From: Bacteroidota bacterium
GTDB lineage: Bacteria > Bacteroidota > Rhodothermia > Rhodothermales > Rubricoccaceae
Reading direction: 5' to 3'
DNA length: 7,432 nt
NCBI GenBank assembly: GCA_022564455.1
Contig: JADFLK010000100.1
Location: forward strand, 1 to 7,432
Below the pieces are notes generated by a model. The model was not told where the DNA came from, ran no database searches, and saw only the letters and a program-made list of their open reading frames with translations. Shown piece by piece: positions 1 to 7,432 of the stretch. Position numbers and translations under genes: made by a program. Position 1 is the first letter of the stretch. Each line of letters starts with the position of its first letter.

Positions 1-1003
1 CGTCGGCGTACAGCTTGACCGTGACCTGCCCGCTCCGGGTGATATAGCCCCGGTACATTCCTTTCGTGTTGAACGGCATGGCCACGTTGCCATGGCGATC
101 CAGCATGATGACGCCGCCCGTGCCACCGGCCTCGGTCAGCGTTTCGTGAATAACGGCTTCAGCGGCTTCGGTGCAGGTCTCTCCGCCGTACATCGCACGC
201 GCATGTATGTCGTGGGCGATGGCAAGCCGGATGAAGTACTCGCCGTGGCCTGTCGAACTGACGCCGCACGTCGCATCGTTGACAAACGTCCCCGCGCCGA
301 TGATGGGCGAGTCGCCGATTCGGCCCCAGCGCTTGTTCGTCATCCCGCCCGTGGAGGTGCCCGCTGCGAGATGCCCCTCGTTGTCGAGGGCTACTGCCCC
401 CACCGTGCCGATCATCTGCCATTCCTCGGGCACATAGCCTGCATCACCTTGCAGCTCGCGTTCACGTTCCTGGGCGGCCTCCAGCGCCCTTCGGCGGTGC
501 TCGGTGTGGAAGAAACTATTCGGCACGATCTCCAAACCCTGTTGGATGGCAAACTCCTCCGCGCCCTCCTCGTTGAGCATCACGTGGACGGAGTGCTCCA
601 TCACGGCTCTCGCCAGTTGGATGGGGTGGCGGATGTGCATCGTCCCCGTCGACGCGCCCGCCTGCCCAGTAGCGCCATCCATGATGGAGGCATCGTGACG
701 CACGGTGCCGTCGGCTGCAAAAACACCGCCGATTCCTGCGTTGAAATGCGGGTCATCCTCCAGCACCTCAATAGCATCCACCACACCGTCGAGCGCAGGA
801 TTGCCCTCCTCAATGGCCGCATACCCTGCGCGGAGGGCTTCCTCCAGTGCCGAGCGGATGGCAGTCTCCCTGTCGGGCGTCACCCGATCCCGACTAATGG
901 TACCCGCCCCGCCGTGGACAACAAGAACGACCGGATCAGCGGACTGGGCGGATGTGGAGACGACAGCCATCACAAAGAACAGAACAAGTACGATGAAGTG
1001 CAT
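1..1003 (-). CDS. Exported isoaspartyl peptidase / type III L-asparaginase (C-terminus beyond window)
   Basis: Ntn-hydrolase that removes N-terminal isoaspartyl residues from damaged peptides and often hydrolyses L-asparagine. The 334 visible codons cover nearly the whole family length (about 320 residues plus a leader); only a few C-terminal residues should lie beyond the left edge. Residues 1-21 (MHFIVLVLFF... ending TSAQS) form a signal peptide, so the enzyme should act outside the cytoplasm. The family start VVHGGAG lies near residue 28. The autocleavage nucleophile is Thr200 in IGTVGAVALD, followed by GTSTGG and by GRIGDSP, whose Arg228 and Asp231 match substrate-binding residues of the family. 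The C-terminal GGVIMLD and MPFNTKGMYRGY segments are also typical. The ATG at 1003 is chosen because it includes the whole leader; no Shine-Dalgarno is visible. It lies 73 bp downstream of the DUF2270 gene on the same strand and may be co-transcribed. Family assignment is confident; substrate preference is not visible. Confidence 0.95.
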   Translation of the reverse strand, partial: MHFIVLVLFFVMAVVSTSAQSADPVVLVVHGGAGTISRDRVTPDRETAIRSALEEALRAGYAAIEEGNPALDGVVDAIEVLEDDPHFNAGIGGVFAADGTVRHDASIMDGATGQAGASTGTMHIRHPIQLARAVMEHSVHVMLNEEGAEEFAIQQGLEIVPNSFFHTEHRRRALEAAQERERELQGDAGYVPEEWQMIGTVGAVALDNEGHLAAGTSTGGMTNKRWGRIGDSPIIGAGTFVNDATCGVSSTGHGEYFIRLAIAHDIHARAMYGGETCTEAAEAVIHETLTEAGGTGGVIMLDRHGNVAMPFNTKGMYRGYITRSGQVTVKLYAD

Positions 1004-1076: not shown

Positions 1077-1754
1077 CTATGTTTTTGGCTGCCCCCTTCG
1101 GCGGACGAGCTTCCTGGCCGGTGAGGCGTCGGCCGCCCAGTCGACGATGTGCTCGGAGGGCGCGCCCAGTGCAGCAATCACACAAAGGGCGAAGAAGACA
1201 CCCATCGCAACCAGGACGGCAGCTCCGGGCACGATTCCTACGGCGGCGCGAGCTACGAATTCCGCGGCCTCGTAGGAAGGCGTGGGGTAAAGCCACAGCT
1301 TTAGCAGCCAGGCCAACAGCAAGATCGTGAACAGAGGCCCGTAGTTCCGGCGAATCCTAAGTCCGGCCGCCCCGAGGAGGGATATTCGCGGGAGCGTGTT
1401 GCCAAGATCCCGCGCGATCTGCGCTAGGCCGGCCTCGATGGCTTCCTTGTCCGTTTCCGAGTTTTGCAATAGCGCCGGCCGGACGAGGTGTTGATGCAGG
1501 TCGCGGATCAGAAGCTCCCACACATGATAGATCTGGTAGCGGCGTGACTCCATCACGAGAAAGAACAGAGTGAACAACAATGCCATCAGGAGGACAAAAT
1601 GCGGAGCCTGCGCCTCGCCGAACGCGAATGTGACCACCGCGGCCGTAGTCACCACCGCCCAGTTCGTCGTGGCATCCAGGCGCCGACGCCATACGTCCGC
1701 GTGCACGACCGCAGCACGGTAGAAGTGGACCAGCACCATCGTTTTGTCTACCAT
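1077..1754 (-). CDS. DUF2270-family integral membrane protein
   Basis: A 225-residue predicted membrane protein of the DUF2270 family, function unknown. The family signature is the N-terminal cytoplasmic segment FYRAAVVHADVWRRRLD followed by TTNWAVVTTAA, which leads into the first membrane helix. Four hydrophobic segments can be seen at about residues 30-47, 52-69, 140-157 and 174-196. A charged, helix-rich stretch (about 70-138, including SRRYQIYHVWE) lies between the second and third. The C-terminus is basic (RKLVRRRG). The start is well fixed because an in-frame TAG lies 9 nt upstream of the ATG at 1754; Met6 at 1739 is a possible alternative. It diverges from the metal-type cluster and precedes the peptidase gene. 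Nothing in the sequence ties it to metal handling. The family call rests on recognised motif style, not a search. Confidence 0.85.
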   Translation of the reverse strand: MVDKTMVLVHFYRAAVVHADVWRRRLDATTNWAVVTTAAVVTFAFGEAQAPHFVLLMALLFTLFFLVMESRRYQIYHVWELLIRDLHQHLVRPALLQNSETDKEAIEAGLAQIARDLGNTLPRISLLGAAGLRIRRNYGPLFTILLLAWLLKLWLYPTPSYEAAEFVARAAVGIVPGAAVLVAMGVFFALCVIAALGAPSEHIVDWAADASPARKLVRRRGQPKT

Positions 1755-1879: not shown

Positions 1880-1910
1880 GGAACTCTGTAGTATACAACA
1901 GGCTGTAGAT
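1880..1910 (+). promoter_or_regulatory. Candidate MerR-type promoter with operator in a 19-bp spacer
   Basis: A 16-bp imperfect palindrome (CTGTAGTATACAACAG, 1886-1901, 14 of 16 positions symmetric) sits between a weak -35-like GGAACT (1880-1885) and a weak -10-like GTAGAT (1905-1910). The spacing is exactly 19 bp. Known MerR-family targets have over-long 19-20 bp spacers with the operator between the hexamers, and the ACTCTGTAGTA start resembles, from memory, CadR/PbrR-type operators. The predicted transcript would start about 30 nt before the thioredoxin-like gene. Both hexamers match the general consensus poorly, so this is a position-and-shape argument. Confidence 0.45.
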
Positions 1911-1947
1911 GTCTTCGCGACAAACCTGACAACCTAGACGTATCGTG

Positions 1948-2214
1948 ATGAGTCCCAAACGCCTCATAGAAATCTATACGGCAGGCTGCCCCATCTGTAT
2001 CGAGACCCTCCAAATGGTCGAGACCCTGGCCTGCTCTTCTTGCGATGTGACCGTCCTGGATCTGAACGATCCAGAGGTGGCGCGTCGGGCCGCAGCATTG
2101 TCGATACTGTCCGTGCCGGCCGTTGTCGTTGACGGTATACCTGCAACCTGCTGCGTCGACCGAGGTGTGTCCGAGGACGCGTTGCGGGCTGCGGGCGTAG
2201 GACAACAGCTTTAA
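1948..2214 (+). CDS. Small six-cysteine thioredoxin/glutaredoxin-like protein
   Basis: An 88-residue cytoplasmic protein with a minimal thioredoxin-like fold. It has a beta strand (RLIEIY) leading into Cys14-Pro-Ile-Cys17 at the start of a helix, a second strand (VTVLDL), and SVPAVVV with the cis-proline (Pro57) typical of the fold. Besides the CxxC there is a second CxxC (Cys29/Cys32, ACSSC) and a vicinal pair Cys68-Cys69 (TCC), many thiols for so small a protein. There is no signal peptide. A GTG at 1945 lies directly before the ATG at 1948; the ATG is preferred, and no Shine-Dalgarno helps decide. As first gene downstream of the candidate MerR-type promoter, it may deliver or sequester a thiophilic metal, or reduce its partners. 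The redox or metal role is inferred. It could also be a glutaredoxin-like hypothetical protein without redox activity. Confidence 0.75.
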   Translation: MSPKRLIEIYTAGCPICIETLQMVETLACSSCDVTVLDLNDPEVARRAAALSILSVPAVVVDGIPATCCVDRGVSEDALRAAGVGQQL

Positions 2215-2302
2215 CCAACAAACAGATCTACGGGATTTAAGACTCCAATCCTATAGACTGAACCCTCATCGCATTCACATTCACCCCATTCGAACTAAAA
2301 CC

Positions 2303-2701
2303 ATGGAACACACCATGAAACGACCAACCCCAGCACCGCTGACAGCAGGTAGACGATTCGCCGCATGTGCGCTCGTTGCACTTTTCGCTACGATGGCCCT
2401 TGCACAGCAAGCGAGCGCTCAGGATGACAAACTCATAGAAGATCCCGATATCATCATCGAGGTAGACGGGATTGCATGTCCCTTTTGTGCCTATGGTATC
2501 GAGAAGCGCCTGAAGAGGATCGACGGCGTAGCTGAGCTGTCCGTTCTGCTGGAGGAGGGCAGGGTTCAACTGAAGATGGACGAGGGGGCAACGGTCTCCG
2601 AAGAACGCCTTCGAGAGGCAGTCGCCGAGGCCGGGTTCGAAGCGCGAAGTATTGTCTTCGTCAACGAAGAGGTGCGAACATCATCGGGGGTTGGTCGATG
2701 A
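2303..2701 (+). CDS. Secreted heavy-metal-associated (HMA, MerP-like) domain protein
   Basis: A 132-residue protein with an N-terminal signal peptide (basic GRR near residue 17, hydrophobic FAACALVALFATMALA, likely cleavage after ASAQ at residue 40) and one HMA domain (about 48-118). The metal-binding loop is GIACPFCAYG with Cys59 and Cys62, followed by the expected helix (IEKRLKRIDGV), strand, and a second helix ending EAGFEA. MerP, CopZ and ATPase HMA domains share this ferredoxin-like fold and bind one soft metal ion (Hg(II), Cu(I) or Zn(II)) with the cysteine pair. The CPFC loop differs from the usual MerP loop, so the metal cannot be assigned. An acidic linker (DDKLIEDPD) precedes the domain. 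The start may be Met1 (2303) or Met5 (2315); either keeps the signal peptide. Its TGA overlaps the next ATG (ATGA), implying translational coupling with the outer-membrane barrel, a likely partner. Confidence 0.85.
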   Translation: MEHTMKRPTPAPLTAGRRFAACALVALFATMALAQQASAQDDKLIEDPDIIIEVDGIACPFCAYGIEKRLKRIDGVAELSVLLEEGRVQLKMDEGATVSEERLREAVAEAGFEARSIVFVNEEVRTSSGVGR

Positions 2702-3654
2702 CTTGCCAAGCCCATTGCGGAAAAAAGGTGCTCCTCTTCCTTCAAGGAATTGGGCCTGGACCCTTGCCACATGCGGCTGCCTTCGTGCTGCTGGCAATAA
2801 TCGCGGCCTCACCAGCGCGCGCGCAGATTACGACGAATACAGCGCTGCCCGTAAGCGCAGGAGAGGGAATTATACGCGTTCAGTCGAAACTCATTCGCTC
2901 TACGGGCGACCCCAGTGAGATGGATCGGGAATTGCGAGTGCTGGCGTTTCCCTTGGTCGGTGTTTACGGCGTAACGCCGAAGCTAACATTGTTCGGTGTT
3001 CTTCCGATCCTCGATAAGAACCTGGAGGTCACCACACCACAGGGCCGCCGCGTCACAAGGAAGACCTCGGGGCTGGCCGACGCTCGTCTTTTTGCGCGCT
3101 ACACGGTGTACCAGTTCAACCGGCGCGGTGAAACCGCCCGGCTCGCGCCTTTCGCCGGAGTTGAGCTGCCCACCGGCACGAATGACGCAACGGACGGCTT
3201 GGGCCTACTGCCGCCGCCACTGCAACTAGGTTCTGGGTCGTGGGACCCCTTCGCGGGCGTGGTGTTTACCAGGCAAACCTTTGCCTGGCAAATCGATGTT
3301 TCGGCATCTTACAAATTCAGCACGGAAGCCGATGACTTTCAGTTCGGGGATGAGGCTCGCCTGGACGTGGCCACGAAGGTGCGCCTCCTACCACGCCGCC
3401 TCAGTAGCGGGTTGCCCAGCTTCCTCTATGGCAACCTAGAGACGAACGTAATCTGGCAGGACCAGAACGAGATGGGCGGTGCCGTGGATGTGAACTCGGG
3501 CGGCACCACTTGGTACATCGCGCCGGGCATTCAGTACGTGACCAGGCGGATCATTCTCGAAGCGGCTGTGCAAGTCCCTGTTGTCCAGGATTTGAACGGA
3601 AGCGCCCTCGAAAACAACTTCATCATCACGCTGAGCTCGCGCTTCAGCATTTAG
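2698..3654 (+). CDS. Outer-membrane beta-barrel, MetA/phenol-degradation 'transporter' type
   Basis: A 318-residue exported protein that looks like an outer-membrane channel of the family often labelled 'transporter' (MetA-pathway of phenol degradation, PF13557-like). The hydrophobic signal (about 24-39) ends in ASPARA with likely cleavage before QITTN. The mature part alternates short amphipathic strands with turns (RELRVLAFPLVGVYGVTPKL, KTSGLADARLFARYTVYQF, LAPFAGVELPTGTND, TFAWQIDVSASYKF) and ends in a strand closing with SSRFSI, as barrel proteins often do. The start codon overlaps the HMA stop by 4 bp, which strongly suggests coupled translation and a shared job. Residues 1-9 (MTCQAHCGKK) put two cysteines and a histidine ahead of the signal segment; an internal GTG at 2728 would drop them. 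Substrate and direction of transport are unknown. A porin-like structural role is possible. Confidence 0.75.
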   Translation: MTCQAHCGKKVLLFLQGIGPGPLPHAAAFVLLAIIAASPARAQITTNTALPVSAGEGIIRVQSKLIRSTGDPSEMDRELRVLAFPLVGVYGVTPKLTLFGVLPILDKNLEVTTPQGRRVTRKTSGLADARLFARYTVYQFNRRGETARLAPFAGVELPTGTNDATDGLGLLPPPLQLGSGSWDPFAGVVFTRQTFAWQIDVSASYKFSTEADDFQFGDEARLDVATKVRLLPRRLSSGLPSFLYGNLETNVIWQDQNEMGGAVDVNSGGTTWYIAPGIQYVTRRIILEAAVQVPVVQDLNGSALENNFIITLSSRFSI

Positions 3655-3691
3655 GCCCTCCTGCAAACACTCCCGGACGGAACCTTTAGCC

Positions 3692-4654
3692 ATGCCTACT
3701 GCTTTTTTTGCAAAACGCCTCTTCCTTTTGGCCTCTCTTGCCGTGTCCCTGCTCGGCTGTCAGCCGTCTACGCCGGAAACACCCACGTATCGCTTTGTGA
3801 AGACCTGGGGCCAGAGAGGCGCCGAACCGGGGGAACTGCGAGAGCCTATCGGCATCGTCATCTCCGGCGAGGAGGTCTTCGTCAGCGATGCGGGCAACAA
3901 CCGGATTCAAGTCTTCGACCGGGAGGGCTTATTCCTTCGCCAGTTTGGCTCCGAGGGAAGTGGCCCCGGCGAGTTAGGGCGACCAATGCATCTCGGCGTA
4001 CAGGGAGGCACTTTATACGTTGCGGAATATCTCAACGACCGTGTGCAGCGCTTCGCACTCGACGGCACTCCGCAGTCATCGATCGGTTCGGCGGGCGCAG
4101 GACCGGGACAATTCGACGCGCCGACCAGCGCCACAGTCGATGCCGATGGTCGCATCTATGTAGCTGATTTCTACAACCAGCGTATCCAAGTACTCAGCCC
4201 GGAGGGCGATTTGGTCCGACAGTTTGGCACGACCGGAGAAGATGGGCCTGAGCCAGAACAGTTTACCTATCCGACCGCAGTGGCGCTGTTTCCTGATGGT
4301 GGCTTCGTTGTGGGTGATGCGTACAATCACCGCATTCAGGCCTTCGATGCCGACGGCGCCTTTCGTTGGATGATTCCAGATGACATCAACTGGGCAGATT
4401 CGACGCAAGGTCGTTTTAACGTGGCCACCTCGGTTACCGTTGGACCAGAGAACCATATCTACGTAGCCGATTTCTACAACCACCGCATCCAGATTATTGG
4501 AGAAGATGGCCAGTTCGTCTCAGCCTTTGGCTCGCAGGGCTCAGGCCCGGGTCAGTTCGAACGCCCCACGGATATCGCCTTCGATGTGGACGAGAATCTC
4601 TACGTCGTCGATTTCGGCAATGACCGCATCCAGAAATTCGAGCCGGTTCGCTGA
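3692..4654 (+). CDS. NHL-repeat lipoprotein, six-bladed beta-propeller
   Basis: A 320-residue lipoprotein. A signal peptide ends in the lipobox SLLGC, making Cys23 the lipidation site. It is followed by a short Ser/Thr/Pro linker and six NHL repeats. The repeat cores are AGNNRIQVF (67-75), YLNDRVQRF (113-121), FYNQRIQVL (160-168), AYNHRIQAF (210-218), FYNHRIQII (261-269) and FGNDRIQKF (308-316), enough for a closed six-bladed propeller. Linkers of the type FGSEGSGPGELGRP are regular except before repeat five, where a longer segment (MIPDDINWADSTQGRFNVAT) replaces the usual glycine-rich loop. NHL propellers are generally binding platforms and only sometimes enzymes; no catalytic site is evident. 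It starts 37 bp after the barrel gene and probably sits in the same operon as an envelope scaffold or binding partner. No cysteine remains after Cys23, so direct thiol metal binding is unlikely. Confidence 0.9.
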   Translation: MPTAFFAKRLFLLASLAVSLLGCQPSTPETPTYRFVKTWGQRGAEPGELREPIGIVISGEEVFVSDAGNNRIQVFDREGLFLRQFGSEGSGPGELGRPMHLGVQGGTLYVAEYLNDRVQRFALDGTPQSSIGSAGAGPGQFDAPTSATVDADGRIYVADFYNQRIQVLSPEGDLVRQFGTTGEDGPEPEQFTYPTAVALFPDGGFVVGDAYNHRIQAFDADGAFRWMIPDDINWADSTQGRFNVATSVTVGPENHIYVADFYNHRIQIIGEDGQFVSAFGSQGSGPGQFERPTDIAFDVDENLYVVDFGNDRIQKFEPVR

Positions 4655-4754
4655 GAACTTGCGTCACCATTTGCGGATTAATACGCAGGCATGAGCAACG
4701 GATTGAACGTGTCTCCGACGATACACTGCCGCCGAGCTGACCCCACAGAGCGCC

Positions 4755-4759
4755 AGGAG
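4755..4759 (+). promoter_or_regulatory. Ribosome binding site that favours the second ATG of the MerR-type gene
   Basis: AGGAG at 4755-4759 is only 2 nt from the ATG at 4762 but 8 nt from the ATG at 4768. The 8-nt spacing is the functional one, so translation probably starts at 4768. It is one of the few clear Shine-Dalgarno sites in the window. Confidence 0.6.
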
Positions 4760-4767
4760 CGATGAAG

Positions 4768-5187
4768 ATGATAACCCGAGGAAAATTAGCCCGGCGTACC
4801 GGCGTGAACATTGAGACGATCCGCTACTATGAGCAGCGCGGGCTGATTCCCGAGCCGCCTCGAACTACATCCGGCTACCGGCAATACACCGAGGACTACG
4901 TTGAGCGCATCCGGTTCATCAAACGGGCGCAGGAACTCGGTTTCACGCTGTCCGAGATCAAGGAGCTGCTCTCGCTCCGCGTTGACCCGGAAACGGACCG
5001 CGGTGAAGTGAAGCAGCGTGCCGCGACAAAAATCGTCGACATCGAGAAGAAGATCAGTGACCTGGAGCGGATGAAGAACCAGTTGACGAGACTGGTAACT
5101 TCTTGTAGCGGGCGCGGACCAACGAGCGAATGCCCGATCTTGGAAGCGATTGAGAGCGAGGAATCCTTCCACGCCGTCGCCAATTGA
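4768..5187 (+). CDS. MerR-family metal-responsive transcriptional regulator
   Basis: A 139-residue cytoplasmic dimeric activator. The winged helix-turn-helix covers about residues 2-70 (LARRTGVNIETIRYYEQRGL, then SGYRQY and the FIKRAQELGFTLSEIKELL helix), all strongly MerR-like. A long dimerisation helix (about 84-110) follows. The metal loop is SCSGRGPTSECPIL, with Cys113 and Cys122 spaced as C-X8-C, as in MerR of Tn501. CueR-type Cu(I) sensors have C-X7-C. The third mercury ligand of MerR, a Cys at the start of the dimer helix, has no equivalent: this region reads DPETDRGEVKQRA, with Arg78 about where the Cys would fall. The inducer is therefore uncertain (Hg, Cd, Pb, Zn or Cu class). Start 4768 is preferred to 4762 on ribosome-site spacing. 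The gene lies 113 bp after the NHL gene on the same strand and probably controls the upstream cluster, perhaps through the palindrome at 1886-1901. Confidence 0.9.
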   Translation: MITRGKLARRTGVNIETIRYYEQRGLIPEPPRTTSGYRQYTEDYVERIRFIKRAQELGFTLSEIKELLSLRVDPETDRGEVKQRAATKIVDIEKKISDLERMKNQLTRLVTSCSGRGPTSECPILEAIESEESFHAVAN

Positions 5188-5325
5188 GAGCACAGGCCCC
5201 GGCCGGTTCAACGTGGCGACGGCCGTAGCCGCCCGGCCGACGTTGCCGTCGACTTAGAAGGCCAGCCGTACGTAGCAGACTTCCACAACGACCGCATCCA
5301 GGTATTTCAACCCGCGGAGAACTGA
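5183..5325 (+). pseudogene. Frameshifted remnant of a second NHL-repeat protein
   Basis: Immediately after the regulator stop, one frame (from 5183) reads STGPGRFNVATAVAARPT. A second frame (5236-5325) reads ADVAVDLEGQPYVADF, then HNDRIQVFQPAEN and a stop. These match the last two repeats of the intact NHL lipoprotein upstream (TQGRFNVATSV, and ERPTDIAFD ending in NDRIQKFEPVR). The expected RPTDVAVD would be restored by adding 4 bp, as if a GACGGACG direct repeat had slipped to GACG. There is no start codon and only about one blade survives, so this is a fossil. DNA identity to the intact copy looks moderate, which suggests an old paralogue and not a recent duplication. Confidence 0.65.
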
Positions 5326-6564: not shown

Positions 6565-7432
6565 ATGTCCCGCTTCATCTCCATTTTATTCTCAGCCATT
6601 CTCCTCTTTCAGTCGGCAGCAAGCCAGGTGCCTTCTGGAGCGCCCGACTGGAGCCAGGACCTCGACGTCCTTGCCCAGGAGCTCCCTGAGCGGCACCCGA
6701 ACCCGTTTGGTCAGATCAGTCGTGACGATTGGGATGCGGCTGTCGCGGACGTGCGTCGCGGCCTACCCGAAATGGATGCCAATCAGTGGATGGTCGCGAT
6801 CCAACGTCTTGTGGCCCGGCTAGGTGATGCACATACTTCAGTGGTCCCCGTTGCCGACCCGGCCCTCAGCGTCCGTTTTTACCCCGTCGAATATTACCTC
6901 TTTGATGACGGGCTCTTCGTCCAGCGCGCCGCAGCCGAATACTCCGAGATCGTCGGCGGCAGGGTGGTAGAAATTGGTCGTGTTAGTGTGGAGGATGCCC
7001 TCGCGGCAGCCGGATCTCTAGTCTCGCACGAGAACGAGTGGTGGGTGAGGGCATGGGCACCACATTACCTCACTATGGTGGAAGCCCTAGATGGCCTCGG
7101 TATCGCCGATGATGCGGAGCGCCTAACCGTGGTCATTGACAAGAATGGAGTACTCGACACGGTTATCCTGATACCGCTGGAACGAATCGAACCGAGCGGA
7201 CACAACCCGCTCGCAACAAGAGAGATGTCTGGCTGGGTCGATATGCGCCAGAGCAGCGAGGCGCCCCGGTGGCTACGTCAACTCGACCGGATCTATTGGT
7301 ACGACTACGATGCTGAGACGAAAACCTTATATGTGTCGTACCGAGCGGTCGCGTCCATACCGCACGGGCCGTCCAATCGCACTTTTTGGGACGAGGTATT
7401 CTCATTCGCCGACACAAGTGATGTTGAGCGGT
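6565..7432 (+). CDS. Exported S41-like (C-terminal processing/tricorn type) peptidase, C-terminus beyond window
   Basis: An open frame of 289 codons running off the right edge. Residues 1-20 (MSRFISILFSAILLFQSAAS) form a signal peptide with likely cleavage near AAS/Q. The next part (DLDVLAQELPERHPNPFGQI, DDWDAAVADV, then LVARLGDAHTSV at 82-93) is the N-terminal helical region of S41-type proteins; GDAHT at 87-91 is the familiar hairpin motif of that region. About residues 105-205 look like a PDZ-like domain (YPVEYYLFDDGLFV, then VVEIG). The catalytic Ser/Lys domain would lie beyond the window, so activity cannot be judged. The ATG at 6565 is chosen because it precedes the signal peptide; GAGAGG at 6541-6546 is too far away for a standard ribosome site. 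It shows no visible functional link to the metal-type cluster. Confidence 0.8.
   Translation, partial: MSRFISILFSAILLFQSAASQVPSGAPDWSQDLDVLAQELPERHPNPFGQISRDDWDAAVADVRRGLPEMDANQWMVAIQRLVARLGDAHTSVVPVADPALSVRFYPVEYYLFDDGLFVQRAAAEYSEIVGGRVVEIGRVSVEDALAAAGSLVSHENEWWVRAWAPHYLTMVEALDGLGIADDAERLTVVIDKNGVLDTVILIPLERIEPSGHNPLATREMSGWVDMRQSSEAPRWLRQLDRIYWYDYDAETKTLYVSYRAVASIPHGPSNRTFWDEVFSFADTSDVER

Follow-up and report, generated by a model that had tools for sequence, protein, structure and literature searches.

What do a MerR-type regulator and a set of envelope proteins do for a cell when their operon carries no pump or reductase? The question is raised by a module in contig JADFLK010000100.1 of the Bacteroidota assembly GCA_022564455.1 (Rubricoccaceae), of which 7432 bp, referred to here as the window, were analysed. 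The module encodes a thioredoxin-like protein (TRX), a protein with an HMA domain, an outer-membrane barrel, an NHL-propeller lipoprotein and a MerR-family regulator. From gene content, predicted folds and the company that the module keeps in other genomes, we propose, with a probability of roughly 0.6, that it is a MerR-controlled accessory operon of resistance to mercury or a closely similar thiophilic metal. The link to mercury as such is the firmer part of this proposal and is quite probable; the direction of transport, which we suppose to be inward, is slightly less than an even call.

The gene set and its operator

The argument draws on the following features of the window.

1880..1911, + strand: MerR-type operator/promoter, GGAACT and TAGATG separated by a 20-bp spacer, with the dyad CTGTAG-TATA-CAACAG at 1886-1901
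1945..2214, + strand: thioredoxin-like protein with six Cys (CPIC, CSSC, CC); no export signal seen by eye
2303..2701, + strand: exported HMA protein, MerP-like (PF00403), with CPFC at residues 59-62
2698..3654, + strand: predicted 12-stranded outer-membrane barrel of the PF13557/COG4313 type (Pfam, AlphaFold2 model, Foldseek)
3692..4654, + strand: predicted six-bladed NHL-propeller lipoprotein (PF01436, model), with the lipobox LLGC recognised by eye
4762..5187, + strand: MerR-family regulator (PF13411/PF09278; best NCBIfam model TIGR02051)
about 5190..5325, + strand: decayed duplicate of the NHL C-terminus, from the translation as it stands

The five genes are intact open reading frames (ORFs) on the + strand, spanning 1945-5187 and tightly spaced. 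Gaps of 88 bp, 37 bp and 107 bp separate the thioredoxin-like and HMA, barrel and NHL, and NHL and MerR genes, respectively, and the HMA and barrel genes share the 4 bp ATGA at 2698-2701. The genes present, their order, strand and spacing are as the first-pass annotation had described them, and the Pfam searches identify four of the five firmly. The HMA protein matches PF00403 with 40.3 bits (E=4e-10, cut-off 24.8) and has the CxxC motif; the barrel matches PF13557 (37.1 bits, E=5e-9, cut-off 22), the NHL protein PF01436 (139.6 bits, E=9e-42, cut-off 20) and the regulator PF13411 (77.6 bits, cut-off 21.6). The thioredoxin-like protein, at 22.8 bits against PF13192 (Thioredoxin_3), falls slightly below the cut-off of 24.8. 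Signals for export were assigned by inspection and not by a predictor.

The AlphaFold2 model of the barrel has a mean pLDDT of 88 and 12 long strands. Its top Foldseek matches are FapF (5o67/5o65, TM 0.53-0.64 by query length) and the COG4313 channel 4rl8 (0.62-0.63), at 13-16% identity; searched by sequence against solved structures, the barrel family gave no match. Confidence is low in the N-terminal plug region (residues 1-44), the first 40 residues having a pLDDT of about 45. The NHL protein is modelled as a propeller with a pLDDT of 94.7, and its Foldseek matches are NHL domains. An HMA protein identical to that of the window is encoded on JADFQN010000016.1 (Bacteroidetes bacterium isolate B7T1B5, locus L001), and named protein matches include Rhodocaloribacter and a Rhodothermia bacterium.

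A MerR-type promoter had been proposed ahead of these genes. The dyad occupies a 19-20 bp spacer in the window and its relatives, a geometry given for MerR-family promoters (PMC1526738). A 27-bp element around the dyad, GAACnnTGTAGnnnnCTACAGGnnGTA, is present with one mismatch in the window and with zero to two ahead of the module in each of four relatives (L003, L004, L005 and L094), as well as in the near-identical L001; the pattern, which was composed after the window and the relatives' sequences had been viewed, has 0 copies in one shuffle of 1.19 Mb. Three loci have weaker copies with three mismatches: those of L041 and L043 precede MerR genes, and the third is in L054. We regard the promoter as supported by the recurrence in four relatives, even though a strict scan (E. 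coli-like boxes, 19-20 bp spacer, dyad) of three intergenic regions of the window, one of them on both strands, found nothing and the 16-bp near-palindrome by itself is at chance level (1 found, against 0.86 in shuffles). Elsewhere, the strict scan returned one chance-level match in the whole window and one match in L049.

Mercury-resistance genes around the module

The neighbourhoods of the best 80 of 304 confirmed related loci were compared; 12 of the 80 are titled Marinobacter, many of the genomes are metagenome-assembled (MAGs), and genes were called with a simple ORF script. The gene set recurs widely, bearing out the co-occurrence that the first-pass annotation had envisaged. A barrel gene lies within 2.2 kb of the HMA gene in 75/80 loci, an NHL gene within 2.6 kb in 48/80, and both, completing an HMA-barrel-NHL triad, in 47/80. 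A MerR gene is found within 4 kb in 42/80 and a thioredoxin-like gene near 9/80. By record titles, the phyla that bear the module are Bacteroidota, Pseudomonadota, Ignavibacteriae, Calditrichota, Gemmatimonadota, Acidobacteria and others.

The claim that pump and reductase are missing holds for the window: no pump or reductase family is matched by its proteins in Pfam or NCBIfam, no MerA is matched in the operon by either, and there is no family match to an inner-membrane Hg transporter (MerT/C/E/F). It does not hold for the related loci, in which MerA lies within 7 kb in 28/80, MerT, MerF or MerTP in 33/80, and one or the other in 36/80; among triad loci the proportion is 26/47. At an estimated one MerA per 4 Mb, about 0.3 of the 80 loci would be expected to have MerA so close. 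The cluster names MerT, MerF, MerTP and MerA rest on motifs and one or two tested representatives, the NCBIfam cut-off being passed by one each of MerT, MerTP and MerF and by two of MerA. An SCCA tail is present in 18/20 members of the first MerA cluster and 7/11 of the second; two of the other four in the second are without the active-site motif and were left out of the MerA counts. One counted member in L045 (Halomonas elongata) is uncertain (748 aa), a clear MerA being present there as well, and the MerF-like cluster member of L032 is doubtful.

Individual loci illustrate how closely the two sets of genes are associated. In a Rhodocyclaceae MAG (L040), merT-merP-merA runs on into HMA-barrel-NHL, the HMA ORF lying 33 bp beyond merA. 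Undibacterium griseum (L049), from another phylum, has MerP-MerF-MerA, one ORF and then TRX-HMA-barrel-NHL-MerR, the order found in the window. L037 reads MerR-MerTP-barrel-HMA-MerT-like-MerA, its barrel having no Pfam match and resting on phmmer (4e-11), and its HMA protein scoring slightly below cut-off.

In having a MerR-type operator upstream, at 1880-1911, the window module resembles mer operons, the sequence itself being unlike that of Tn501. With the Tn501 operator as the query, sites with at most 2/16 mismatches occur between -350 and +90 of the HMA gene in 9/80 loci, compared with 21/2145 control tiles drawn from the same loci (p=5e-7) and 0.0 in shuffles. They include L025 (Marinobacter algicola DG893) and L026, both without a mer gene within 7 kb; the L009 site and two L013 sites may serve a divergent merT, and the L071 site falls within an ORF as called. 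In L008 (Thalassospira), MerR-TRX-HMA-barrel-NHL follows a near-perfect Tn501-type operator (1 mismatch, -35 TTGACT).

The association extends to whole genomes. Among genomes with the triad, MerA passes the curated cut-off in 37/47 and MerT in 39/47; the MerA count was not used as a test against the 31/195 for the class, the two sets being different and partly overlapping. Within the 195 genomes of the class, MerA is present in 10/17 with a module of the triad or MerT-like type and in 21/178 others (p=2e-5). That comparison excludes 8/25 genomes with an HMA match (G014, G035, G047, G052, G060, G074, G128 and G140), whose matches fall within or next to P1B ATPases, as sorted by hand from maps of loci of about 2-3 kb; when all genomes with an HMA match are counted, the figures are 11/25 and 20/170 (p=3e-4). 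MerA may be undercounted in the class because the search scored seven candidates per genome. A stand-alone, pump-free system was rejected on the mer genes near 36/80 loci and on the MerA and MerT counts in triad genomes. The envelope metal route suggested by the first-pass annotation is accordingly narrowed: the module does look MerR-controlled and has an outer-membrane component, but the proposal of a route needing neither an inner-membrane transporter nor a reductase was too wide.

Close relatives indicate where such partners may be. HMA-barrel-NHL-MerR is kept in L001, L002, L003, L004 and L006, the thioredoxin-like gene being seen only in L001 and L006; identity to the window is 54-66% for NHL (L003, L004, L006) and 60-62% for the barrel (L003, L004). 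L005 has TRX-MerT-like-HMA-barrel and then the contig end, and L094 has TRX-MerT-like-(HMA)-barrel-MerR. Both hold a MerT-like gene at the place of the window's 88-bp gap. The MerT-like family has a TLxCCALP motif and is found within 7 kb in 16/80 loci (L005:9510-9929 and 15 others). Its members share with MerT (PF02411) a CC pair near the N-terminus, and 14/16 have a second Cys pair; they differ in falling below cut-off where tested (one member 23.4 bits, cut-off 32.9; another without a Pfam match), and the family has no match in NCBIfam. It is absent from the window and was not matched in G001, G002, G003, G004 or G006. In relatives from the class, it forms MerT-like-barrel-HMA-MerR operons. 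A MerT-like gene lies near 3/47 triad loci and 13/33 others (p=4e-4, uncorrected for kinship); this rarity of NHL-type and MerT-like-type modules together suggests two alternative links between an outer stage and the inner membrane.

In G001 to G004, MerA passes the cut-off on a contig other than that of the module, and MerT adjoins it in G002 to G004. MerA of G001 starts at the edge of its contig (G001:C43), the upstream side lying beyond it. On the same contig (L083), 3.3 kb from MerA, is a MerR 83% identical to that of the window. An NHL fragment lies ahead of it, and the window locus and G001:C43 therefore seem to share a duplicated stretch.

Plasmid searches returned records for HMA (2), barrel (5), NHL (46) and TRX (26). 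Plasmid pB1701 (L119) carries TRX-MerR-MerT-MerP, and in G005 (L088) a TRX homologue adjoins MerR-MerTP. As a separate observation, plasmid genes for GDCCVxC (seleno)proteins adjoin MerR-MerT-MerP or HMA genes (L119 on pB1701, and L082).

P1B ATPases occur within 7 kb in 12/80 loci. The phosphorylation site follows a YPC motif in 12/12 clustered members (L061:4445-6943, L015, L016, L020, L023, L027, L033, L034, L056, L058, L062 and L076). The usual motif is CPC or SPC, CPC being that of copper pumps. A Tn501-like site with two mismatches lies directly upstream in L015, L016, L020, L023, L027 and L062.

Metal, direction and competing explanations

The accessory role in mercury resistance could take the following form. 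Hg(II)-bound MerR would turn the operon on, and the COG4313-type barrel would pass neutral Hg species (HgCl2) or thiol complexes across the outer membrane. Since HgCl2 is neutral and lipophilic, a gate of this type giving Hg to a CPFC carrier is plausible. The HMA protein, apparently coupled in translation to the barrel here, would capture Hg(II) through its CPFC pair in the manner of MerP, and the membrane-anchored NHL propeller may hold or dock the barrel and the HMA protein. Genes elsewhere in the genome would supply the MerT-type protein that next receives Hg(II) and the MerA that reduces it, and the thioredoxin-like protein with its six Cys may serve in the cytosol as a thiol relay or buffer. 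More tentatively still, Gram-negative mercury resistance may possess an overlooked, dedicated outer-membrane stage in several phyla, in which a COG4313-type channel and a CPFC carrier, together with either an NHL anchor (MerT and MerA being elsewhere) or a divergent MerT-like protein, provide an envelope-spanning route for Hg(II).

With known mer operons the module has in common the MerR-type regulator and operator, the exported HMA carrier, the genomic neighbourhood and the genomes in which it is found; it differs in adding an outer-membrane barrel and an NHL protein and in having neither MerT nor MerA in the window operon. The HMA protein shares its domain and CxxC with MerP and CopZ, but forms a subfamily of its own, with CPFC (kept in 70/79 members of two HMA clusters), a longer N-terminus and scores under the listed curated MerP and CopZ cut-offs (27.1 bits against the MerP model TIGR02052, cut-off 92.55). 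The barrel is alike in its 12 strands, fold and Pfam family to the COG4313/PF13557 channels (Pput2725, SphA, TcpY) and FapF; in contrast to these, its genomic partners are metal proteins rather than catabolic or amyloid genes. The accessible parts of mer reviews name transport proteins from periplasmic MerP onwards and no outer-membrane protein, a legend shows diffusion arrows, and an NHL protein does not figure among the mer genes that they list (PMC3466566, PMC8261052). Among the hits listed from the open-licence literature, titles and abstract openings gave no description of COG4313, NHL or this HMA set linked with mer. The module is widespread by record titles and undescribed as far as these searches of the open literature show; most likely it is a branch of mercury resistance that faces the outer membrane.

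A number of observations weigh against this assignment. The 27-bp operator was not found in the module-bearing L002 and L006, and no Tn501-like operator was found in the window even at four mismatches. The regulator scores 141.4 bits against the mercuric MerR model TIGR02051, below the cut-off of 150.85, yet this is its top NCBIfam model. Of the three Cys ligands of mercuric MerR, residues 82, 117 and 126 in Tn501, it retains two, C115 and C124 (C-x8-C), Arg80 replacing the third. The HMA protein scores better on copper-chaperone (CopZ) models than on MerP. Neither a mer nor a MerT-like nor a P1B ATPase gene lies within 7 kb in 27/80 loci, and no barrel was scored beside the HMA gene in 14/80. 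With ORFs assigned by phmmer, the HMA gene comes before the barrel gene in 42 loci (an NHL gene following in 31 of them) and after it in 24; the exact 4-bp overlap occurs in 13/42, the remaining spacings lie between -385 and 421, several of them depending on uncertain start codons, and coupling of the two genes is not general because their order varies. Four of the 47 triad genomes (G006, G011, G226 and G228) have neither MerA nor MerT over the cut-off, and no MerT was detectable in G001, which has the near-identical module. On plasmids, MerT/MerP accompanied TRX in one of three contexts viewed, the other two having only a MerR or other metal regulator, and the one HMA-barrel pair viewed had no mer gene within 6 kb. 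Finally, the molecules that COG4313 channels are thought to admit through a plugged 12-strand barrel are hydrophobic ones, not ions (PMC4493636).

The Arg variant of the regulator is recurrent, being carried by the paralogue near MerA in L083 and by 10/58 MerRs of the neighbour set, the near-identical copy of L001 included. The best solved-structure match of the window regulator is 4ua1, and its neighbours by tree distance are those of L001, the L083 paralogue, then L006, L004, L003 and the mer-operon MerR of L084. Its two Cys fit the sensing either of mercury by two ligands or of copper.

The alternative that survives best, although unlikely, is that the module handles copper, silver or gold by means of a CueR-like, two-Cys MerR and a CopZ-like HMA protein. 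CopZ models being the best HMA matches is in keeping with this, as is the regulator's want of a third Cys, a trait of CueR, whose model it matches with 133 bits (cut-off 147.4); some of the P1B ATPases in the 12/80 loci are accompanied by CcdA-like or Cus-like genes. The mer genes are nearby three times as often (36/80), however, Tn501-like operators stand at the module, and the clustered ATPases have YPC in place of the CPC of copper pumps.

A shade less credible is an outward route, in which the barrel would export the metal or metal-loaded carrier, or would secrete the HMA protein, Hg being kept outside the cell. FapF, the best Foldseek match, is a secretion channel, an inner-membrane transporter is missing from the operon of the window, and NHL-type and MerT-like-type modules are seldom found together. 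Against export, the inner-membrane partner, where there is one, is MerT-like and so comes from a family of importers, nothing that could power export is seen, and the COG4313 members for which a role is proposed are uptake channels (PMC4493636).

The same account, which implicates these channels in the uptake of hydrophobics (PMC4493636), would accommodate entry of organomercurials or of other hydrophobics travelling with mercury; this we consider improbable, and specificity for organomercury was rejected, MerB occurring in only 2/26 genomes examined. Least probable of all is a remnant of a broken mer operon: pump and reductase genes do adjoin related loci, a MerT-like gene does sit at the window's 88-bp gap position in L005 and L094, and a decayed NHL fragment does follow MerR, but a simply broken operon does not follow, because all five ORFs are open, L001, L002, L003, L004 and L006 keep HMA-barrel-NHL-MerR with the NHL and barrel identities given above, and four relatives keep the operator (which L001, L003 and L004 combine with that gene set).

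If the module is indeed an accessory mercury-resistance operon, the conserved barrel-carrier pair in an apparent mer regulon allows passage of the outer membrane to be studied in hosts that can be cultured (Marinobacter, Halomonas, Undibacterium). The module would add genes to the marker list for mercury detoxification in metagenomes, and a likely function can be offered for proteins at present annotated only as 'transporter', '6-bladed beta-propeller' or 'heavy-metal-associated domain-containing protein'.

Flanking genes and minor observations

The window had no match in Rfam, and three flanking ORFs had none in PHROGs. An asparaginase/beta-aspartyl-peptidase is encoded at 2-1003 (- strand), a DUF2270 membrane protein at 1077-1754 (- strand) and an ORF without a family match at 6565-7431 (+ strand); no link of any of these to the module was seen. 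The L006 contig is titled as a Luteimonas sp. MAG and has a Bacteroidota-like module, perhaps through a binning or naming error. In three loci from Bacteroidota (L083, L085 and L087), a membrane protein with a VPIQL motif lies near MerA, those of L083 and L085 matching DUF6789 weakly, and in L085 a DUF302 protein is also encoded near MerA.

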